DNA of 64,000 nt, from assembly GCA_947497175.1 (NCBI GenBank), contig CANMFM010000002.1:124001-188000 (forward strand). The letters are read 5' to 3'. The notes below the pieces were generated by a model. The model made no database searches and was not told the origin of the DNA. It was given only the letters and a program-made list of their open reading frames with translations. Made by a program: the position numbers and the translations under genes. This document shows, piece by piece, positions 50,792 to 59,016 of the stretch. Numbering within the stretch: position 1 is the stretch's first letter; each line of letters starts with the position of its first letter. Source of the DNA: an uncultured Aquimarina sp. (GTDB taxonomy: Bacteria; Bacteroidota; Bacteroidia; Flavobacteriales; Flavobacteriaceae).

Positions 50792-52330
50792 ATGTTATTT
50801 AAGGTTTTTGGTAGCGCTGTTTTTGGTGTAGAAGCTACTACCATTACAGTTGAAGTAAATATAGATAAAGGAATAGGGTATCACCTTGTTGGTTTGCCAG
50901 ATAATGCAATACGAGAAAGTAGTTATCGTATTGCTGCAGCACTTCAAAACAATGGATATAAGCTTCCTGGAAAAAAGATAACGATCAATATGGCCCCTGC
51001 AGATTTAAGAAAAGAAGGATCTGCCTACGATCTTACATTAGCATTGGGTATTCTATCAGCCAGTTCACAAATTAGAGGAGATAATGTCTCAGAATATTTG
51101 ATCATGGGAGAACTTTCTCTTGATGGAAATCTTCAGCCGATTAAAGGAGCATTACCAATTGCTATTAAAGCACGGGAAGAAGGATTTAAAGGATTTATTC
51201 TCCCAAAACAAAATGCAAAAGAGGCCGCTATTGTCGATCATTTAGAAGTGTATGGGGTTGAAAATATAAAAGAAGTAATCGATTATTTCGATGGTAAAGG
51301 CCAATTAGAACGAACTATAGTAGATACACGTGAAGAATTTTATGCTGCTCTTGATAATCCAGAGTTTGATTTTGCTGATGTGAAGGGGCAAGAAAGTATA
51401 AAGCGGTGTATGGAAATTGCTGCTTCTGGTGGTCATAATATTATATTAGTAGGACCTCCGGGAAGCGGTAAAACAATGCTTAGTAAAAGATTACCAAGTA
51501 TTTTGCCTCCAATGTCTTTGCAAGAGGCTTTAGAAACCACCAAAATTCATAGTGTGGTCGGAAGAATTAAAGATAATGTGGGATTAATGGCGCAACGGCC
51601 TTTTAGAAGTCCGCATCATACCATATCTAATGTAGCATTGGTTGGAGGTGGTAGTTATCCGCAGCCTGGAGAGATCTCGTTATCTCATAATGGGGTTTTG
51701 TTTTTGGATGAATTACCAGAGTTTAAAAGAGAAGTATTAGAAGTTATGCGGCAACCCTTAGAAGATAGAGAGGTGACCATATCCCGCGCCAAGTTTACGG
51801 TTACTTATCCATCTAGTTTTATGTTAGTGGCGAGCATGAATCCTAGTCCGGGAGGGTATTTTAATGATCCCGAAGCACCAGTTACATCTTCTCCGGCAGA
51901 GATGCAGCGATATCTGAGTAAGATTTCTGGCCCCTTATTAGATCGAATAGATATTCATATTGAAGTGACTCCTGTACCTTTTGATAAATTAAGCGATGAT
52001 AGAAATGGAGAATCCAGCGTAGCTATACGAAAACGTGTGATTGCAGCAAGAGATGTTCAAACCAAAAGATATTCAGATTTACCAAACATTCATTACAATG
52101 CTCAAATGGGAGTAAAACAAATAAGAGAGTTTTGCGAATTAGATCGATCTTCAAAAGAGTTGCTCAAAAAGGCTATGGAGCGACTAAATCTTTCTGCGAG
52201 AGCATATGATCGTATCCTAAAAGTCTCTCGCACAATTGCAGATCTTGAAGGAGCGAATACTATTAACGGAGATCATATTTCTGAAGCAATACAATATAGA
52301 AGTCTTGATCGGGATGGCTGGTTGGGGTAG
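50792..52330 (+). CDS. comM: YifB/ComM family Mg-chelatase-like AAA+ ATPase
   Basis: 512 residues. The N-terminal Lon-like domain (~1-170; GIGYHLVGLPDNAIRES) is followed by the Mg-chelatase AAA+ core with Walker A GPPGSGKTM near residue 225, Walker B FLDELPEF, the sensor/arginine-finger region, and a C-terminal ComM domain ending RSLDRDGWLG. ComM acts as a hexameric helicase in branch migration during natural transformation. It is intact here. A degraded copy of its 3' end lies 5.2 kb downstream at 57520-57694, beyond the lanthipeptide cluster. Confidence 0.95.
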   Translation: MLFKVFGSAVFGVEATTITVEVNIDKGIGYHLVGLPDNAIRESSYRIAAALQNNGYKLPGKKITINMAPADLRKEGSAYDLTLALGILSASSQIRGDNVSEYLIMGELSLDGNLQPIKGALPIAIKAREEGFKGFILPKQNAKEAAIVDHLEVYGVENIKEVIDYFDGKGQLERTIVDTREEFYAALDNPEFDFADVKGQESIKRCMEIAASGGHNIILVGPPGSGKTMLSKRLPSILPPMSLQEALETTKIHSVVGRIKDNVGLMAQRPFRSPHHTISNVALVGGGSYPQPGEISLSHNGVLFLDELPEFKREVLEVMRQPLEDREVTISRAKFTVTYPSSFMLVASMNPSPGGYFNDPEAPVTSSPAEMQRYLSKISGPLLDRIDIHIEVTPVPFDKLSDDRNGESSVAIRKRVIAARDVQTKRYSDLPNIHYNAQMGVKQIREFCELDRSSKELLKKAMERLNLSARAYDRILKVSRTIADLEGANTINGDHISEAIQYRSLDRDGWLG

Positions 52331-52554
52331 AGGTGTTAATTCACGTTTTATTAGTTCTTTAAGCTGATAAGAGAAACGTTTAATTAAACCTAAATCTTTA
52401 GTAATTATTTCAGGAAGAATACCTCACATTTCCTGTTTACAATCTATAATCTTTATTATAGGAAGTAATGACCTTTTTGTGATACTTTTCAGTTCTTTTT
52501 AAGTATGTTACCCCACAAACTGTAGAATCTAATTGGTTGTAAAAAAGGAAAAGT

Positions 52555-55431
52555 TTAATCATTTTTGTTGATAGTCTTTTCTGTAAATTTCAATTGTTTT
52601 AAATAATTAAGTGTTATATAATACGTTTGAAACTCTTTGAATCTTGGTTTATCATTAAATAAACGATTCATACTCATATGGATAATATCAGAAACGTACT
52701 GCTTTTTTTTATAAGTGCTTTTTTGAAGATGTAAGGTAATTTCAGATGTAAGAGCGGGGATTTCTAGAAATCGATGATACTGTTTCTCATTTATTTTCAG
52801 CAAAATGTTTTTACTATATTTATTAAAAGATTTTCGTAATGATTTATCTAAAGGAAATTCTTGGGACAAAGTAGCAATAGCTAACTCGCACTGCGATATC
52901 ATTTCATCTAATGTAAGACTAAAAAATTCAAAATAATATTTTATTTTAAAAATTGCTTGCAAAAATATTGACTCATGATCTAAAGTATCATATTTAATAA
53001 TTTGATTAAAAGTATCTAGACTATCCAAATGGAATATTTTTTCTGATAGCCTCATTAATTTTTCTCCGCCATATCGATCTAATTCTTGATTGTATGGTTT
53101 TATGAGGTATTCTAAAACGATATTATTCTGTTTTAGCTCCCCAATTTTTTCCATTATTTGAGCTTTAAATTCAGGCGATACTGTTTTAAAACGTATTCTA
53201 AGATGATTTTTAGGGTTGTTATATCGAACGTAAAAAAATAGTTCTAGTACAGGAGTTTGTTTACGTACTAATGTTTTAAAAATTATATTCAGTATTTCAT
53301 TTTCGGCATAAGAATTACAATACAATTCTAAGTATAACCAATCAGAAAGCCATGGAATATTTTGATTTTTCTCTTTATCATTAATATTAATTTTTGATAA
53401 AGGTTTAGGTGCTTTAAAATTAGTATTCTTTATAGAAGTGTATAATTCGTGCACATAGTGGGCTCCGTTTTCTTTTATTTGCGGTGTAAATGAGCTATAA
53501 ATCGACTCGGAAATATAAAAAAAGGATACTTCTAATAGTTTTTTATGAAGCTTTATAATAGTTTCTTCTTCTTTAAGGTCTAAAATTAAAGCCCCTTTTT
53601 TATCAGGAAAACAAATGGTGTTGGGAAAAGAATATAAATCAATTAAGTCAAACAAATAAACTTTAAAATCTATTAAATTTAAGTTGTTATTAACTAATAG
53701 AAGTTGTGCTGGGTGCAATAGAATATCATCTTCCAGATAGATTCTGGGTACATATAAAACACCTAAGTTTTCATAAAAGTTGAAGTTGAATTGTATTGGT
53801 GATAGTTCTTTCTGCTGAAACTGTAAATCACAAAGAAATTGATATATTTCCGAATTATCTAATGTGTAATTGATAGCCGAAGTCAATCTGGGAATTATTT
53901 CCTTTTGCTTTTCCTTCGAAATTAATATAAATCGATTTCCATTATATTTTACATATAAATCTTCAAGAAATATGGGATTAGCGCCTTTATCGAAAGCCGT
54001 ATTTAAAGGGATTACATGTTTATAGTACCTTTTTTCTGCAAGAACGTTTAGAGTCCTTGCTTGCGAAACCATATTGATTTCTGCAACAATTTGGTTATTA
54101 TATATTTCTTCTTCGTACAATGCGATTTCACTGCAAAGCTCTTCAGTTGCATTGGTAAATCTACCCAATATATTAATTGCAGACACTCCTCCAATTGTTT
54201 TAAAATAAATTATTTCTTTTCCAGTCTTGTTACATTTTAATAATTCATACAAGATTCCAAAAGTGGGCGATAAAGATTCAGAAAGCTGGTCTGTATCTAT
54301 TTTGGGAATAGTCAAATTAACAGGATAGTTATTTGAAGCTATTATTTTATGTAAAAGAGTTTTAGGAAACTTTGGAGAAGATATGGTTTTTCTAGAACCA
54401 TATTCTAAGCCACATTTAGGGTTAAAAACAGTACTAAGGGGTACAAAGTCATCATTAAAATGACGATGAAAAATTTTTCCAAATTCTGATAATTTATTAG
54501 GGAGTGTTTTTTTATTTGTAGTTTGGGATAGTGTAAAACAAATGTATTTTTTTATTTTTTCTTGTACATCAAAATGTACATTCCCTGTCATTTTATCATA
54601 TCCAGTAACTGTATATACCCTTTTATAAGTATCAGTAGTGGGTAGTTTAATTTGTTCTTTGTGTATACGATTGATGAATAGGTCACGATTTTTTTTGGAG
54701 TTAATTTTGTGCGTTTTTTCTTTTATGATTTGAGATTTAAAATGAGTTTTTCCTATTGGTTTTGTTATGTTTCTTGGGGGTAATACATTTTTGTTAATGA
54801 TAAGTCCTGCTTCAATAACTTCAAGAAGATATTTATGTATATCGTTAATTTCAAAACCATCTTTTATGAGTAGTTTAGAAATTTCATGAATTTTAGCACC
54901 TTTTTTAAATTGATTAATAATCCATTCTGTATTCTCATCAAAATCTAATTCGGCATATTTCGTTTTGAAATCACCTTTATCAGTAATTTTAGTTTTATAA
55001 TAACTTAATCTATTTCGAGATAAAAAATGTATGGTAGGGTTTGTGTAATATGGATGTGCTACCCAATCGGTTTTAAGCGTTTTTAGTAATTCTTTTATAA
55101 AAAAATAATTATCTACGGTTGTTGTTATATAGGTATCGCTAGATTTTTGTATACCTTTAATAGCTCCCCACTGTAAAGTGCCAACTTTACTAAAAGTCCC
55201 AAAAGGAACAGGACTAAAATGAGCACGTTTAAAGTAATTTTCTAAAGCTATTTTTACTTTGTCGGTTTTGTTTTTTTTTAAATCGTTATATAAATCTCTA
55301 GAAGCAATTAATATGGATAGTTGAAAAAGTGTGTTTTTTTCAAAAAAAGAAATAATATCATCTTTATGAGTCTCAAAAGATTCAATTGAAAAAGAGGTCG
55401 TTCTAGAGACAGTTGTGTTAAAAAATTTCAT
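52555..55431 (-). CDS. Class I lanthipeptide dehydratase LanB (full length)
   Basis: 958 residues. The N-terminal glutamylation part (Lant_dehydr_N, ~1-650) and a C-terminal elimination/SpaB_C-type part (~690-930; WLSDWLYLELYCNSYAENEIL, FYVRYNNPKNHLRIRFK) are in one chain, so it should be able to add and remove glutamate from tRNA-Glu at Ser/Thr of the precursor. It starts one codon after lanC and is the last gene of the leftward operon precursor-lanC-lanB. There is no transporter or protease gene next to it. Ser/Thr dehydration followed by LanC cyclisation gives lanthionine rings. Confidence 0.93.
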   Translation of the reverse strand: MKFFNTTVSRTTSFSIESFETHKDDIISFFEKNTLFQLSILIASRDLYNDLKKNKTDKVKIALENYFKRAHFSPVPFGTFSKVGTLQWGAIKGIQKSSDTYITTTVDNYFFIKELLKTLKTDWVAHPYYTNPTIHFLSRNRLSYYKTKITDKGDFKTKYAELDFDENTEWIINQFKKGAKIHEISKLLIKDGFEINDIHKYLLEVIEAGLIINKNVLPPRNITKPIGKTHFKSQIIKEKTHKINSKKNRDLFINRIHKEQIKLPTTDTYKRVYTVTGYDKMTGNVHFDVQEKIKKYICFTLSQTTNKKTLPNKLSEFGKIFHRHFNDDFVPLSTVFNPKCGLEYGSRKTISSPKFPKTLLHKIIASNNYPVNLTIPKIDTDQLSESLSPTFGILYELLKCNKTGKEIIYFKTIGGVSAINILGRFTNATEELCSEIALYEEEIYNNQIVAEINMVSQARTLNVLAEKRYYKHVIPLNTAFDKGANPIFLEDLYVKYNGNRFILISKEKQKEIIPRLTSAINYTLDNSEIYQFLCDLQFQQKELSPIQFNFNFYENLGVLYVPRIYLEDDILLHPAQLLLVNNNLNLIDFKVYLFDLIDLYSFPNTICFPDKKGALILDLKEEETIIKLHKKLLEVSFFYISESIYSSFTPQIKENGAHYVHELYTSIKNTNFKAPKPLSKININDKEKNQNIPWLSDWLYLELYCNSYAENEILNIIFKTLVRKQTPVLELFFYVRYNNPKNHLRIRFKTVSPEFKAQIMEKIGELKQNNIVLEYLIKPYNQELDRYGGEKLMRLSEKIFHLDSLDTFNQIIKYDTLDHESIFLQAIFKIKYYFEFFSLTLDEMISQCELAIATLSQEFPLDKSLRKSFNKYSKNILLKINEKQYHRFLEIPALTSEITLHLQKSTYKKKQYVSDIIHMSMNRLFNDKPRFKEFQTYYITLNYLKQLKFTEKTINKND

Positions 55432-55434
55432 TAT

Positions 55435-56592
55435 TTAATATAAATTTAAACATCTCAACCAATCATTTTTTATTTTCCCATCTAAAGTCAATAGTGTAAG
55501 TCCTAGTCCTGAAGCTCCCACAATTATATTAGAATGATCAATTAAATTAGAGGCTCTAAAGGCTTTAAAAGTAGTGAAATTGCATGTTTGCTTTTGTAAT
55601 TCCTGATACCATCCTTTTTGAGTTTTTTCCGTATTTAAAGTGTATTTATTTTGAGCTATATTGTATTGTATTACTAAACCCACACTTCCATGGCATAAAC
55701 TAAAATCTAAGACACCTGAAACTTTCAAAGAGATGTTTTCTGTAGAGGTGATCAATTTTATAGCCTCTTGTTTTATAGTGTTGTCATTTAGTAGTGTACT
55801 GGCATTAAGTAAAGCCAGACCAATCCCTAAATCTCCCTGGCACCAACCCAATCTGGATATACCAACATCGTCTTTATTATCAATATAACTTGGGAAATAT
55901 TGTTGAGAAATCGTATTGTACGATTTTTTAGATCTTAAAAACGTAATTAATTTAATAAGTGCTTGTTCTATGTCTTGTTTTAAAGATGGAATATAATAGT
56001 TTAAGTAGCACAAAAAATTTATTAAACTACTAATACCATGCGCCAAACCAAAATAAATGATTTCTTTTTTTGGGTCTTCAGCTTTCGATATGATAACATT
56101 GTTAAAGTCGTCAATAAGTTTATGCAATAGGTCTTTGGAAAAAAGAGTTAAAACTTTTATTGCATTTTCATTATTGGGATTAACTTTTAATTGTTCAATA
56201 AAATACATAGCTATGCCAGTGGCACCATGAAGAAAATCGTAATCATTTTTATTAGAAAAGGAAGATAAGGCGTCTTCTAATACGATATCGAGAGTTTCAA
56301 AATAGGAGTCGTCAATAGCAATTGTATTCTTTTTTAGATTAAGGAGCATCCACCCATAACCTGCTAAACCAGAACAAAAAGTTGTTAAAGGTATCTTTTC
56401 CGAAATTAACCAATCAATGCGCTCTACAACTTTAAGTAAACGCGTAGCGTACTTTTCATCTTTATAAACCTCAAATAGATTTGAATAAAATAGAGCAATA
56501 CCAGAAAGTCCACTTAATAGCCCTATGTCGTTTTCATTTTTAATAGAATTCCAAACGTGGTTTTCTATATTTAAAATTTCGGAGGTTTCCAA
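55435..56592 (-). CDS. Lanthionine synthetase C (cyclase)
   Basis: 385 residues of the LanC (alpha,alpha)-barrel type. The repeated GxxG motifs (LSGLSGIAL, FCSGLAGYG, FLHGATGIA) and the zinc ligands Cys251 (GWCQGD), Cys300 and His301 (LCHGSVG) are all present, so it should be an active cyclase that joins Cys thiols to dehydrated residues. The only start I see is a TTG at 56590-56592, as an in-frame stop lies shortly upstream and no early internal ATG exists. It sits between the precursor and lanB genes. Three bases separate it from lanB. Confidence 0.93.
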   Translation of the reverse strand: METSEILNIENHVWNSIKNENDIGLLSGLSGIALFYSNLFEVYKDEKYATRLLKVVERIDWLISEKIPLTTFCSGLAGYGWMLLNLKKNTIAIDDSYFETLDIVLEDALSSFSNKNDYDFLHGATGIAMYFIEQLKVNPNNENAIKVLTLFSKDLLHKLIDDFNNVIISKAEDPKKEIIYFGLAHGISSLINFLCYLNYYIPSLKQDIEQALIKLITFLRSKKSYNTISQQYFPSYIDNKDDVGISRLGWCQGDLGIGLALLNASTLLNDNTIKQEAIKLITSTENISLKVSGVLDFSLCHGSVGLVIQYNIAQNKYTLNTEKTQKGWYQELQKQTCNFTTFKAFRASNLIDHSNIIVGASGLGLTLLTLDGKIKNDWLRCLNLY

Positions 56593-56874
56593 TACTATGA
56601 TGTGGTTAAGTAGTTATTTTAATTTAATTTTTGTTGGTAAAGATTTTCTGGAGTATTTGGAATGGCATTAAATAAATAATAGTCTACAATAATGCCACTA
56701 ATTTGTGGATAAGGCTATGCGTTTCTAATAATGCTTTCTATGGTTAAATTTCTATGCATTTGTAGTTAAAAAAAACAAGAGGAACACCTTTGTAAAAAGT
56801 ATTCTTAGTAAATAATTTAGGTATAAATCTTATAATTAAGATTTATACCTAAAGGAAATTAGCCTACAACTCAC
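56593..56874 (-). other. Gap between the lanthipeptide precursor and lanC
   Basis: 282 bp without a convincing ORF on either strand. It contains the large hairpin described separately and otherwise AT-rich sequence. If the three genes are cotranscribed, it is a long leader for lanC. Confidence 0.5.
56818..56851 (-). terminator. Attenuating hairpin after the lanthipeptide precursor gene
   Basis: A perfect 14-bp stem TAGGTATAAATCTT / AAGATTTATACCTA (56818-56831, 56838-56851) with a 6-base loop lies 23 bp after the precursor stop. There is no strong T tract, so partial read-through is likely. This would make more precursor than enzyme mRNA, as in other lantibiotic operons. Confidence 0.65.
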
Positions 56875-57057
56875 TTATTGCTTGTTACTTGAGCAGGGGC
56901 CTCCTGGATTTTGAGGAATGTGTGTTAATCCAAGGGGGCATGCTTCATTTGCAAATACGGTAAATAGATTTACAGTAAGATAACCACCTTCAATACTAGC
57001 TTTATCTTCAGGAGATAAGGCTTTGATTTTCAAATTTTTTAATTCCAATTTTTTCAT
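56875..57057 (-). CDS. Class I lanthipeptide precursor peptide
   Basis: 60 residues. The leader (1-25) is Lys- and Leu-rich (MKKLELKNLKIKALSPEDK) and ends in a double glycine, GG at 24-25. The core (26-60) contains Thr28, Thr33, Thr45, Ser56 and Ser57 as possible dehydration sites and only two cysteines, Cys40 and Cys55, so at most two thioether rings. Leader type and position upstream of lanC and lanB fit a Bacteroidota class I precursor. The core matches no lantibiotic I know. The GG site suggests removal by a C39-type peptidase, but no such gene is visible in the window. Confidence 0.88.
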   Translation of the reverse strand: MKKLELKNLKIKALSPEDKASIEGGYLTVNLFTVFANEACPLGLTHIPQNPGGPCSSNKQ

Positions 57058-57378
57058 TTTTTACTTATTTTAATTTTTCTTACTCTATTTGATAGGATTT
57101 TCAGATGCCTCCTTAACATTAATCTAAAATATTATATACTGTTTTTTACACGTGTTTAAACTAAAAATATTCTGCTGTTACTGAGAAAATTGATATCAAA
57201 TTTTTAAAATTTAACCATGCTAGAACCTGTTACACAATCTCCCGCTTTGATGAAATTTAAATTATCTAATTTTTTACCCTGTAAATTTATTTGAGATATA
57301 ATTTTAAAAATATTGCATTTCACAGCTTTTAATAGCTGTTTTCTTAATCCCACAATATTATATAATATAATTTTTAGG

Positions 57379-57416
57379 AAGTTCTGAATCTTCAACTTGT
57401 TAAAGATCCAGAACTT
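57379..57416. terminator. Hairpin upstream of the lanthipeptide precursor
   Basis: The stem AAGTTCTGAATCTT / AAGATCCAGAACTT (57379-57392, 57403-57416) has one mismatch and a 10-base loop. It may be a terminator left from an older gene or one for transcription from either side. Confidence 0.5.
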
Positions 57417-57519
57417 ATTTAGATGCTTTTTTTGAATGAATTAGAAGTTTGAGAAGTATGTTTTTTTCAATATTGTATAAAAATTAGATGTAGATGTAAA
57501 GCCACGTTCTAAAGCAAGA

Positions 57520-57694
57520 GTATCCAGCGTAGCTATACTAACGTGTGATCGCAGCAAGAGCATATGATCATATCCTAAACGTCTCTCGCATGATAGCAGA
57601 TCTTGAAGGAGTAAATACGCTTAACGGAGATCATATTTCTGAAGCAATACACTATAGAAGTCTTGATCGAAATGGCTGGTTGGGCCAAGAATAG
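57520..57694 (+). pseudogene. Degraded duplicate of the comM 3' end
   Basis: 57522-57560 matches comM 52012-52052 with a 2-base deletion. Then 57561-57684 matches comM 52203-52326 with about 13 mismatches in 124 bases. A 150-bp internal deletion joins the two at a shared AGAG. The second part still reads in the comM frame ([18 protein letters not shown]...GWLGQE, stop at 57694), but the 2-base deletion breaks the frame before it. Most changes alter amino acids, so it is drifting as a pseudogene. It lies in the same orientation as intact comM. Confidence 0.93.
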
Positions 57695-57795
57695 CGTCTA
57701 GTGTGTTTAGAATTTATAAACTATTTTAAATTCTTATTAACAATCGTGATTTAGTACCTTGAAAAATCAATATTTTTAAGAATACACAAAAAATC

Positions 57796-59016
57796 ATGAA
57801 AAAATGGATTACTAATATTGGTCCAGGTGCATTGGTTACTGCGGCATTTATTGGTCCAGGTACGGTAACCGTATGTACCCTGGCTGGCGTTAAATTTGGA
57901 TACACATTATTATGGGTCTTGTTATTGTCAATTGTAGCTTGCGTAGTATTACAAGAAATGGCCGCCAGGCTAGGGGTGATTACTCAAAATGAGCTCAGCG
58001 AAGTATTAAAATCTCAATTTCGAAATAAAATTCTGAAATGGTCGCTTATCGGGATTGTGATTTCTGCAATATTTATTGGTAATGCAGCCTACGAAGCTGG
58101 TAATATTAGTGGAGGAGTATTAGGGTTGTCTACAATTTTAGGAACACCTACTCTAAATTTAGGAGGGTTTACACTAAATTATCAAAGCCTGATCATTGGT
58201 ATTTTTGCTTTTGTGCTTTTGTATATTGGCAATTACAAAGTATTAGAACGTAGTTTGATTATTATGGTGTTGAGCATGAGTTTGGCTTTTATTATTGCGG
58301 CCCTAGTAACCAAACCTGATCTTTCTTTAATTTTTAAAGGGTTTGTTCCTGCATTTGAATCAGAAAAAATTTTCATGATTATTGGTTTAATTGGTACTAC
58401 TGTGGTTCCCTATAATTTGTTTTTACATGCCTCTTTGGTAAAAGAAAAATGGAACACCCCAGAACAGCTTCCTTTAGCTCGAAAAGATACAATTATTGCA
58501 ATTATAGGTGGCGGAATAATGTCTATGGCAATCATTATCGCTGGTGCAGCGATACAAGATACAGAAGTGCACAATGCTGCCGACCTTGCAAAAGGATTAG
58601 AGCCGGTTTTTGGCGTAGCGGCAAAATATGTGCTCTCTCTGGGGCTTTTTGCAGCTGGAATAACCTCTGCAATTACGGCTCCACTGGCTGCGGCTTATGT
58701 TGTCAAAGGATGTATGGGCTGGAAAGGAGGGATGAAAACCAAAGAATTTAGATCTGTTTGGATGTTTATTTTATTGATAGGGGTTGTATTTTCTTCGCTA
58801 GGTATAAAGTCAATAGAAATAATTCAATTTGCTCAAATCGCTAACGGACTTTTATTACCAATTATCGCAGGTTTCCTTTTATGGGTTATGAATAGAAAAA
58901 CACTTTTAGGAAAATATACAAACTCATGGAGACAAAACTTTTTAGGAGGTATGATTCTTTTGGTGACCATTTTTTTAGGAATGAGAAGCATTTGGAAAGT
59001 AATTTCTGGTTTGTAA
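57796..59016 (+). CDS. Nramp-fold transporter lacking the metal-binding residues
   Basis: 406 residues with about 11 membrane segments of the Nramp/LeuT fold. The first segment reads GPGALVTAAFIGPGTVT, where metal transporters have DPGN: Asp is Gly20 and Asn is Thr23. The sixth reads GTTVVPYNLFLHASLV, where they have MPHN: Met is Val204 and His is Tyr206. All the main metal ligands are therefore replaced, so it probably does not carry Mn or Fe. It lies 27 bp before pxpA in the same direction. A role in taking up 5-oxoproline or a related organic substrate is suggested by context; it is inference. Confidence 0.85.
   Translation: MKKWITNIGPGALVTAAFIGPGTVTVCTLAGVKFGYTLLWVLLLSIVACVVLQEMAARLGVITQNELSEVLKSQFRNKILKWSLIGIVISAIFIGNAAYEAGNISGGVLGLSTILGTPTLNLGGFTLNYQSLIIGIFAFVLLYIGNYKVLERSLIIMVLSMSLAFIIAALVTKPDLSLIFKGFVPAFESEKIFMIIGLIGTTVVPYNLFLHASLVKEKWNTPEQLPLARKDTIIAIIGGGIMSMAIIIAGAAIQDTEVHNAADLAKGLEPVFGVAAKYVLSLGLFAAGITSAITAPLAAAYVVKGCMGWKGGMKTKEFRSVWMFILLIGVVFSSLGIKSIEIIQFAQIANGLLLPIIAGFLLWVMNRKTLLGKYTNSWRQNFLGGMILLVTIFLGMRSIWKVISGL

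Follow-up and report, generated by a model that had tools for sequence, protein, structure and literature searches.

A class I lanthipeptide gene cluster, as predicted from its genes, lies in an uncultured Aquimarina sp. between an intact comM gene and a decayed second copy of the comM 3' end, and in these marine bacteria and others of their family comM appears to be a preferred site for the docking of new genes. The corresponding site is empty in a relative, and two species resemble each other more closely in the cassette than in the genes that flank it. In these two hosts the left junction is the same and the right junction differs, and the comM remnants resemble the hosts rather than the cassettes.

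ComM has been reported to help the recombination of DNA acquired by transformation (available part of PMC10293859), and disruption of its gene by mobile elements is known. Here, comM stays whole while RiPP genes, a polysaccharide-type locus, a perforin-like protein and other cargo have repeatedly been added behind it. In this large environmental family, gained gene sets can be recognised by a simple search for the comM 3' scar, which also makes testable how cargo lacking its own recombinase finds one spot.

The lanthipeptide locus and its comM remnant

The window is a stretch of 64,000 nucleotides (assembly GCA_947497175.1, contig CANMFM010000002.1, positions 124,001 to 188,000). Its relevant features are given below, where L153 denotes the matching locus of uncultured Aquimarina isolate 2-156 and G017 the closest sampled genome by comM (86%).

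50792..52330, plus strand: comM, intact, encoding a YifB-type Mg chelatase-like ATPase (TIGR00368, E 1.9e-194; Mg_chelatase domains)
52331..52554, no strand: left non-coding edge of the cassette, from the comM stop (0.877 identity to L153)
52555..55431, minus strand: lanB, a class I lanthipeptide dehydratase of full length (Lant_dehydr_N and Lant_dehydr_C both exceed their cut-offs)
55435..56592, minus strand: lanC, lanthionine cyclase (LANC_like, E 1.6e-43)
56875..57057, minus strand: lanthipeptide precursor-like gene of 60 aa with a GG motif and two Cys (from reading the sequence; 0.94 identity to L153)
57441..57521, minus strand: stub of a regulator gene (AraC-type, on weak evidence), severed by the right junction (from the L153 alignment)
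57522..57694, plus strand: comM 3' remnant from about codon 407, with an internal gap of about 143 nt and the original stop lost (alignment and profile)
57695..57795, no strand: native flank from the comM end to Nramp, continuous with the empty site of G017
57796..59016, plus strand: Nramp-family transporter, right neighbour of the empty site (PF01566, E 6.9e-89)

Behind comM on the plus strand, lanB, lanC, the precursor-like gene and the regulator stub thus follow on the minus strand before the remnant and Nramp return to the plus strand. The lan genes are enclosed by an intact comM and a degraded comM 3' end in the same orientation, at the positions described in the first-pass annotation, and the left junction of the cassette coincides with the comM stop codon. 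PF04738, PF14028 and PF05147 all score over their cut-offs, and the precursor-like gene, which has no match in Pfam or NCBIfam, carries Ser/Thr and Cys residues as judged by eye. By these features, the genes are a class I lanthipeptide cluster with a predicted ring-bearing product. The open reading frame of L153 that continues the regulator stub matches HTH_18 at 22.6 bits, below the Pfam cut-off of 33.6. By reading of the open reading frames and by Pfam, none between comM and the remnant resembles an integrase, as had been noticed earlier. No second lan cluster occurs in 480 kb of contig C7 of the same genome, and a ComEC gene is present in this genome. A hairpin-like sequence near the right edge of the cassette (57379-57417) is also found on contig C7 (L007, L008).

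The remnant aligns to comM nucleotides 1217-1261 at 89% and 1405-1535 at 90% identity (E 1.8e-44 for the latter). Remnant and window comM are 90% identical and each other's nearest sequence. The internal deletion that had been proposed is present, with a size of about 143 nt rather than 150 nt. Over 129 aligned nucleotides the two copies differ at 13 positions, 6 synonymous and 7 amino-acid-changing, so that the earlier description of the substitutions as mostly amino-acid-changing was a slight overstatement; seven of the changes fall on the remnant branch, one on comM, and five are ambiguous. The remnant is compatible, on this comparison, with a copy of the window's own comM. At the right join, microhomology amounts to only about 2 nt by eye.

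The same cassette in a second Aquimarina species

Isolate 2-156 (L153) carries comM, lanB, lanC, the precursor, a comM remnant and Nramp in the order of the window. Between the two, lanC, the precursor and the non-coding edges are 0.88-0.94 identical, compared with 0.82 for comM and 0.77 for Nramp, and the high identity starts at the comM stop. Since the cassette is 88-94% identical (the centre of lanB apart) and its flanks are 77-82% identical, the cassette has moved. Within lanB, the centre (window 53100-55200) is about 0.5-0.8 identical and the ends are about 0.9 identical, like lanC; from this pattern, the centre reads as an exchanged segment.

The right joins differ between the two hosts. 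In the window the join lies at comM codon ~407 and cuts the regulator gene, while in L153 it lies at codon ~480 and about 470 bp more of the cassette is retained. The remnants agree at 73 of 93 nt, which is the level of the hosts, and the window remnant resembles a displaced end of the comM of its own host rather than a traveller with the cassette, a refinement of the first description. An integron-like remnant travelling with the cassette was considered and rejected, the remnants of the window and L153 being only host-level alike. The last 93 nt of the L153 comM are nearest to the window (82/93), and the body of that gene is slightly nearer to G017. Over so short a stretch, the window-like end is no more than suggestive of an exchange.

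Both named relatives with lanB (L152 and L153) bear the name Aquimarina. L152, taken to be G036 because the two match in coordinates, identity and residues covered, carries an L153-type lanB (90% identical to that of L153) that adjoins a tyrosine recombinase and an HTH_17 gene. The comM site of G036 is empty although the L152 contig has lanB elsewhere, and the lan cluster is therefore mobile.

comM sites across the genus

In G017, comM stands directly before Nramp, and the alignment runs unbroken through the window remnant, the flank and Nramp. The adjacency of comM and Nramp predicted for strains that lack the cluster is found in five genomes, with Nramp less than 250 nt from comM (G017, G022, G036, G040 and G048). 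The other expectation, different cargo at the same site, is borne out by six genomes of the genus, each with its own comM 3' scar, and 18 genomes of other genera bear scars of this kind. The cargo of the six comprises genes reading like a candidate two-component system plus others (G029), a Sortilin/Vps10-type protein (G014), a MACPF protein and others (G018), a DUF4214 protein (G015), two small genes (G012) and a 641-aa protein without a Pfam match (G005). The same cluster and remnant in all relatives, with no empty site, had been named as the pattern that would speak against a gain. It is not the pattern seen: G017 is empty, and L153 has the cluster and remnant but a different right junction.

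Together with the window, these make seven scarred loci among the 44 genus loci with an intact comM. The other 37 show no scar (three of them with less than 4 kb of sequence covered), and they include five with the same first cargo gene as G014. A profile search revealed no older scars at the inner borders of the genus loci at E <= 0.001. The G029 locus is a mosaic, since comM and the adjoining block match G004 and the part from the remnant onward matches G001 and G026. The first ~80 nt behind comM differ by eye between G029 and G004, which share this block, and a simple comM-anchored transfer therefore does not fit there.

comM is split in three further genomes of the genus, G028, G007 and G026, while comM matches in G010, G021, G023 and G039 were left out of the locus classes. 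In G026 (L110, L111), comM is interrupted with its middle lost, and the insert carries a small serine resolvase.

comM scars across the Flavobacteriaceae

The family was scanned with a motif of the last comM codons (at most one mismatch) in 299 genomes. It occurs in 245 of these and twice or more in 21, including the genome of the window. In 18 of the other 20, an extra same-strand copy lies within 10 kb of another copy, and the longest comM piece is upstream in all 18 stretches; these 18 genomes of other genera thus repeat the comM 3' end farther downstream in the same orientation, behind varied cargo. The motif is repeated without such a pair in G213 and G277. More than one remnant was found in G083, G245 and G288. 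The stretch of G245 has two, with the full comM about 39 kb upstream. That interval (L146, L147) holds a polysaccharide-type locus with TonB-receptor-like, SusD and sulfatase matches, and directly next to the remnant lies a 159-aa HTH-like open reading frame that by eye resembles one at the remnant of G298. In G229 the cargo includes radical-SAM and C39-peptidase transporter genes, and a second RiPP-like set therefore occupies the same spot.

Across 26 loci, the distance from the start of the remnant to the comM end ranges from 36 to 713 nt. In all 25 compared pairs, the similarity between the two copies tails off by eye at the stop codon or close to it, extending somewhat further in G012 and G298. 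These pairs (that of G245 consisting of its two remnants) show 383 synonymous and 139 amino-acid-changing differences, or 115 and 65 without the four ~700-nt remnants of G180, G239, G288 and G298. By our own estimate, a self-duplicate decaying freely beside a constrained comM would give about 36% synonymous differences. The excess over this value indicates that in many loci two separate, functional alleles were probably brought together; the window pair (6/13 synonymous) lacks this two-allele signature. In G317 (L136), the remnant shares 54 identical nt with the end of comM in G096 (L144), a member of the same genus, while the comM end of G317 itself agrees at 51 of 58 nt. G245 was disregarded as a comM neighbour, its assignment being based on a truncated comM. 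Gradual shortening of the long remnants that begin at codon ~278 was considered and discarded, as identity and length do not go together.

An order-wide scan of 196 genomes gave 42 with a match, predominantly from this family, for which the pattern is tuned. comM ends occur in 18 phage records (40 to 73% amino-acid identity among the matches listed) and 45 plasmid records (51 to 72% among the matches listed), some of which are of chromosome size or faecal contigs; none of the names listed is a member of the Flavobacteriaceae.

Specificity of the comM 3' end

When 873 kb of genus loci were searched with a profile built from this end, seven matches besides comM came up at E <= 0.001, all of them downstream of comM and on its strand. 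The strongest is the window remnant (2.8e-30), and the best match below the threshold has an E of 0.13. Two gene-wide controls were made. In 838 kb of the window genome, comM alone among 689 genes has a 3'-end copy, counting same-strand copies within 20 kb and outside another open reading frame. In the genus loci, 200 nt at both ends of 672 genes were searched, which yielded 15 copies, all on the same strand. Seven are the comM scars, and the remaining eight belong to G006 (four, in two similar adjacent genes), G031 (two), G034 (one, inside a similar open reading frame) and G041 (one).

About 1,300 control genes in total thus gave one comparable case, that of G041 (L093 9133-9196), where a 64-nt, 80% identical copy of the 3' end of a 176-aa gene lies ~390 nt downstream, on the same strand and outside any open reading frame of at least 60 aa, and translates alike. 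Such scars are therefore not confined to comM, which stands out strongly, though not absolutely.

Apparently site-specific insertions at comM in relatives

In two genomes of the genus, comM is split at codon ~278 by inserts of 13-14.5 kb that carry large serine recombinases (G028, L108 2336-15326; G007, L109 1068-15531), and roughly this codon is where the remnants of G239, G180, G288 and G298 start. In G028, the two ends bear ACCTCCAC / GTGGAGGT as an inverted pair that surrounds the core, an arrangement that attP half-sites would be expected to show.

A second position recurs at comM codon ~496, where five scars, two in G083 and one each in G154, G281 and G088, have the same start behind TACAYATTCRGGTG (with two mismatches in the G088 scar, L209). 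From its sequence, this site looks like an attachment core. The neighbouring genes in three of these genomes are of one type, which we take to be DUF6090. An inverted TTCGG...CCGAA surrounds the join in several of these scars (L122, L124 and L133, turned so that comM is on the plus strand, and L209 as the reverse complement). A scan of the 299 family genomes for an autonomous element with the codon-496 end returned only the three known scar genomes, G088 and G120, the last with three mismatches and away from any comM match. This end was absent from the viral contigs, and no integrase was found at the codon-496 scars of other genomes.

The window has neither the codon-278 junction mark nor the codon-496 end. 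A unifying scheme can be imagined in which the last comM codons are a docking site of the Flavobacteriaceae, small gene sets are added newest first with comM 3' scars marking the older ones, an unrecognised site-specific recombination system at codon ~496 (TACAYATTCRGGTG) is the active form and window-type scars are its irregular or decayed products, but we judge it unlikely as a whole.

Possible origins of the insertion

For the window, the best reading, which we hold at close to even chances, is exchange by homology at comM combined with an illegitimate join on the right. The incoming DNA with the lan cassette would have had a comM 3' end on its left. On the left, homologous exchange with the resident comM would have taken place near the stop codon, by transformation or another route, and on the right the cassette would have been fused to the resident comM some 320 nt before its stop, with no long stretch of homology and presumably by an illegitimate event. 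comM would thereby remain whole with the cassette behind it, and the resident 3' end would be stranded as a decaying duplicate. The constant left join, the variable right joins, the host-like remnants and the lack of a recombinase fit homologous plus illegitimate joining. Against it, this route leaves the preference for comM unexplained, the window comM and remnant lack the two-allele signature, the right join offers little microhomology, the G029/G004 pair departs from a simple version of it, and most cargo-bearing loci are free of scars, as are 37 of the 44 genus loci. Family-wide, cargo seems to have reached comM by different routes, with site-specific ones among them.

That preference would be better explained if a site-specific recombinase, since lost or acting from elsewhere, had placed the cassette at an attachment site within the 3' end of comM, with the element supplying a new comM end and the old end becoming the remnant. 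Such an origin also agrees with the five scars in four genomes that start at one comM position behind the 14-base TACAYATTCRGGTG, and with the four remnants that start where serine recombinases split comM in G028 and G007. We nevertheless find it unlikely here: the window cargo has no recombinase and its junction no 14-base end, the remnants of the 26 loci start at widely differing points (36 to 713 nt from the comM end), and the right joins of the window and L153 differ, with remnants that do not follow the cassette. One old insertion in the common ancestor of the window and L153, its right sides trimmed differently and its cassette later homogenised by recombination, would account for a cassette and remnant at the same place in both, for remnants as diverged as their hosts and for the clear exchange of part of lanB. 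It is improbable given that the rise in identity begins right at the comM stop and that G017, with a comM as similar to each of the two as these are to one another, is empty and would need to have lost the insertion. The first-pass annotation had left open whether a segment was gained or a tandem duplication of the comM end was later filled by the cassette. The 90% identity of remnant and comM, each closest to the other, suits the latter, but an unfilled duplication is seen in no genome, the same scar stands behind unrelated cargo in many, and many pairs resemble two separate working alleles. Because the cassette is more alike in the two species than the flanking genes, gain is favoured and a filled duplication is very improbable.

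Comparison with known systems

Some genomic islands enter the 3' end of a gene and restore it, such as e14 in icd. The window likewise has an intact gene at one edge and a 3' remnant at the other, and several loci have remnants in a row; unlike these islands, its cargo has no integrase and the remnants vary in length, in place of a fixed attachment core. In the cassette arrays of integrons, new cargo is placed beside a fixed point and its borders are marked by repeated sequence, which is also the arrangement at comM. However, the remnant in the window and L153 is host-like and does not travel with the cassette, and neither IntI nor attC was seen. A limited literature search turned up no docking site at the 3' end that leaves comM whole.

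Targeting of comM in mid-gene is established in the available parts of the sources. The Mg-chelatase gene is the target of 12.4% of predicted site-specific serine integrases (PMC10083194, in part), and the large serine recombinases described there share their target gene with G028 and G007, where comM is split at codon ~278, the point at which the remnants of four relatives begin. In contrast to those elements, the window has an intact comM, joins at the stop and at codon ~407, and no recombinase. Tn6022 with TnsF, and Tsy, likewise single out comM, inserting mid-gene at the Walker B region and carrying Tn7-like or tyrosine-recombinase genes, as far as the available text of PMC10293859 describes them; the window insertion is at the 3' end, and its cargo consists of lan genes with no Tn7-like or tyrosine-recombinase genes.

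In homology-facilitated illegitimate recombination, one end is joined by homology and the other illegitimately, and no recombinase is needed (PMC3240628, available portion). As described there, the process belongs to laboratory settings and can use any homologous anchor, whereas here it would be recurrent at one gene family-wide, which that mechanism alone does not predict. The window shares with it the non-homologous, variable join at one end by which the process is recognised.
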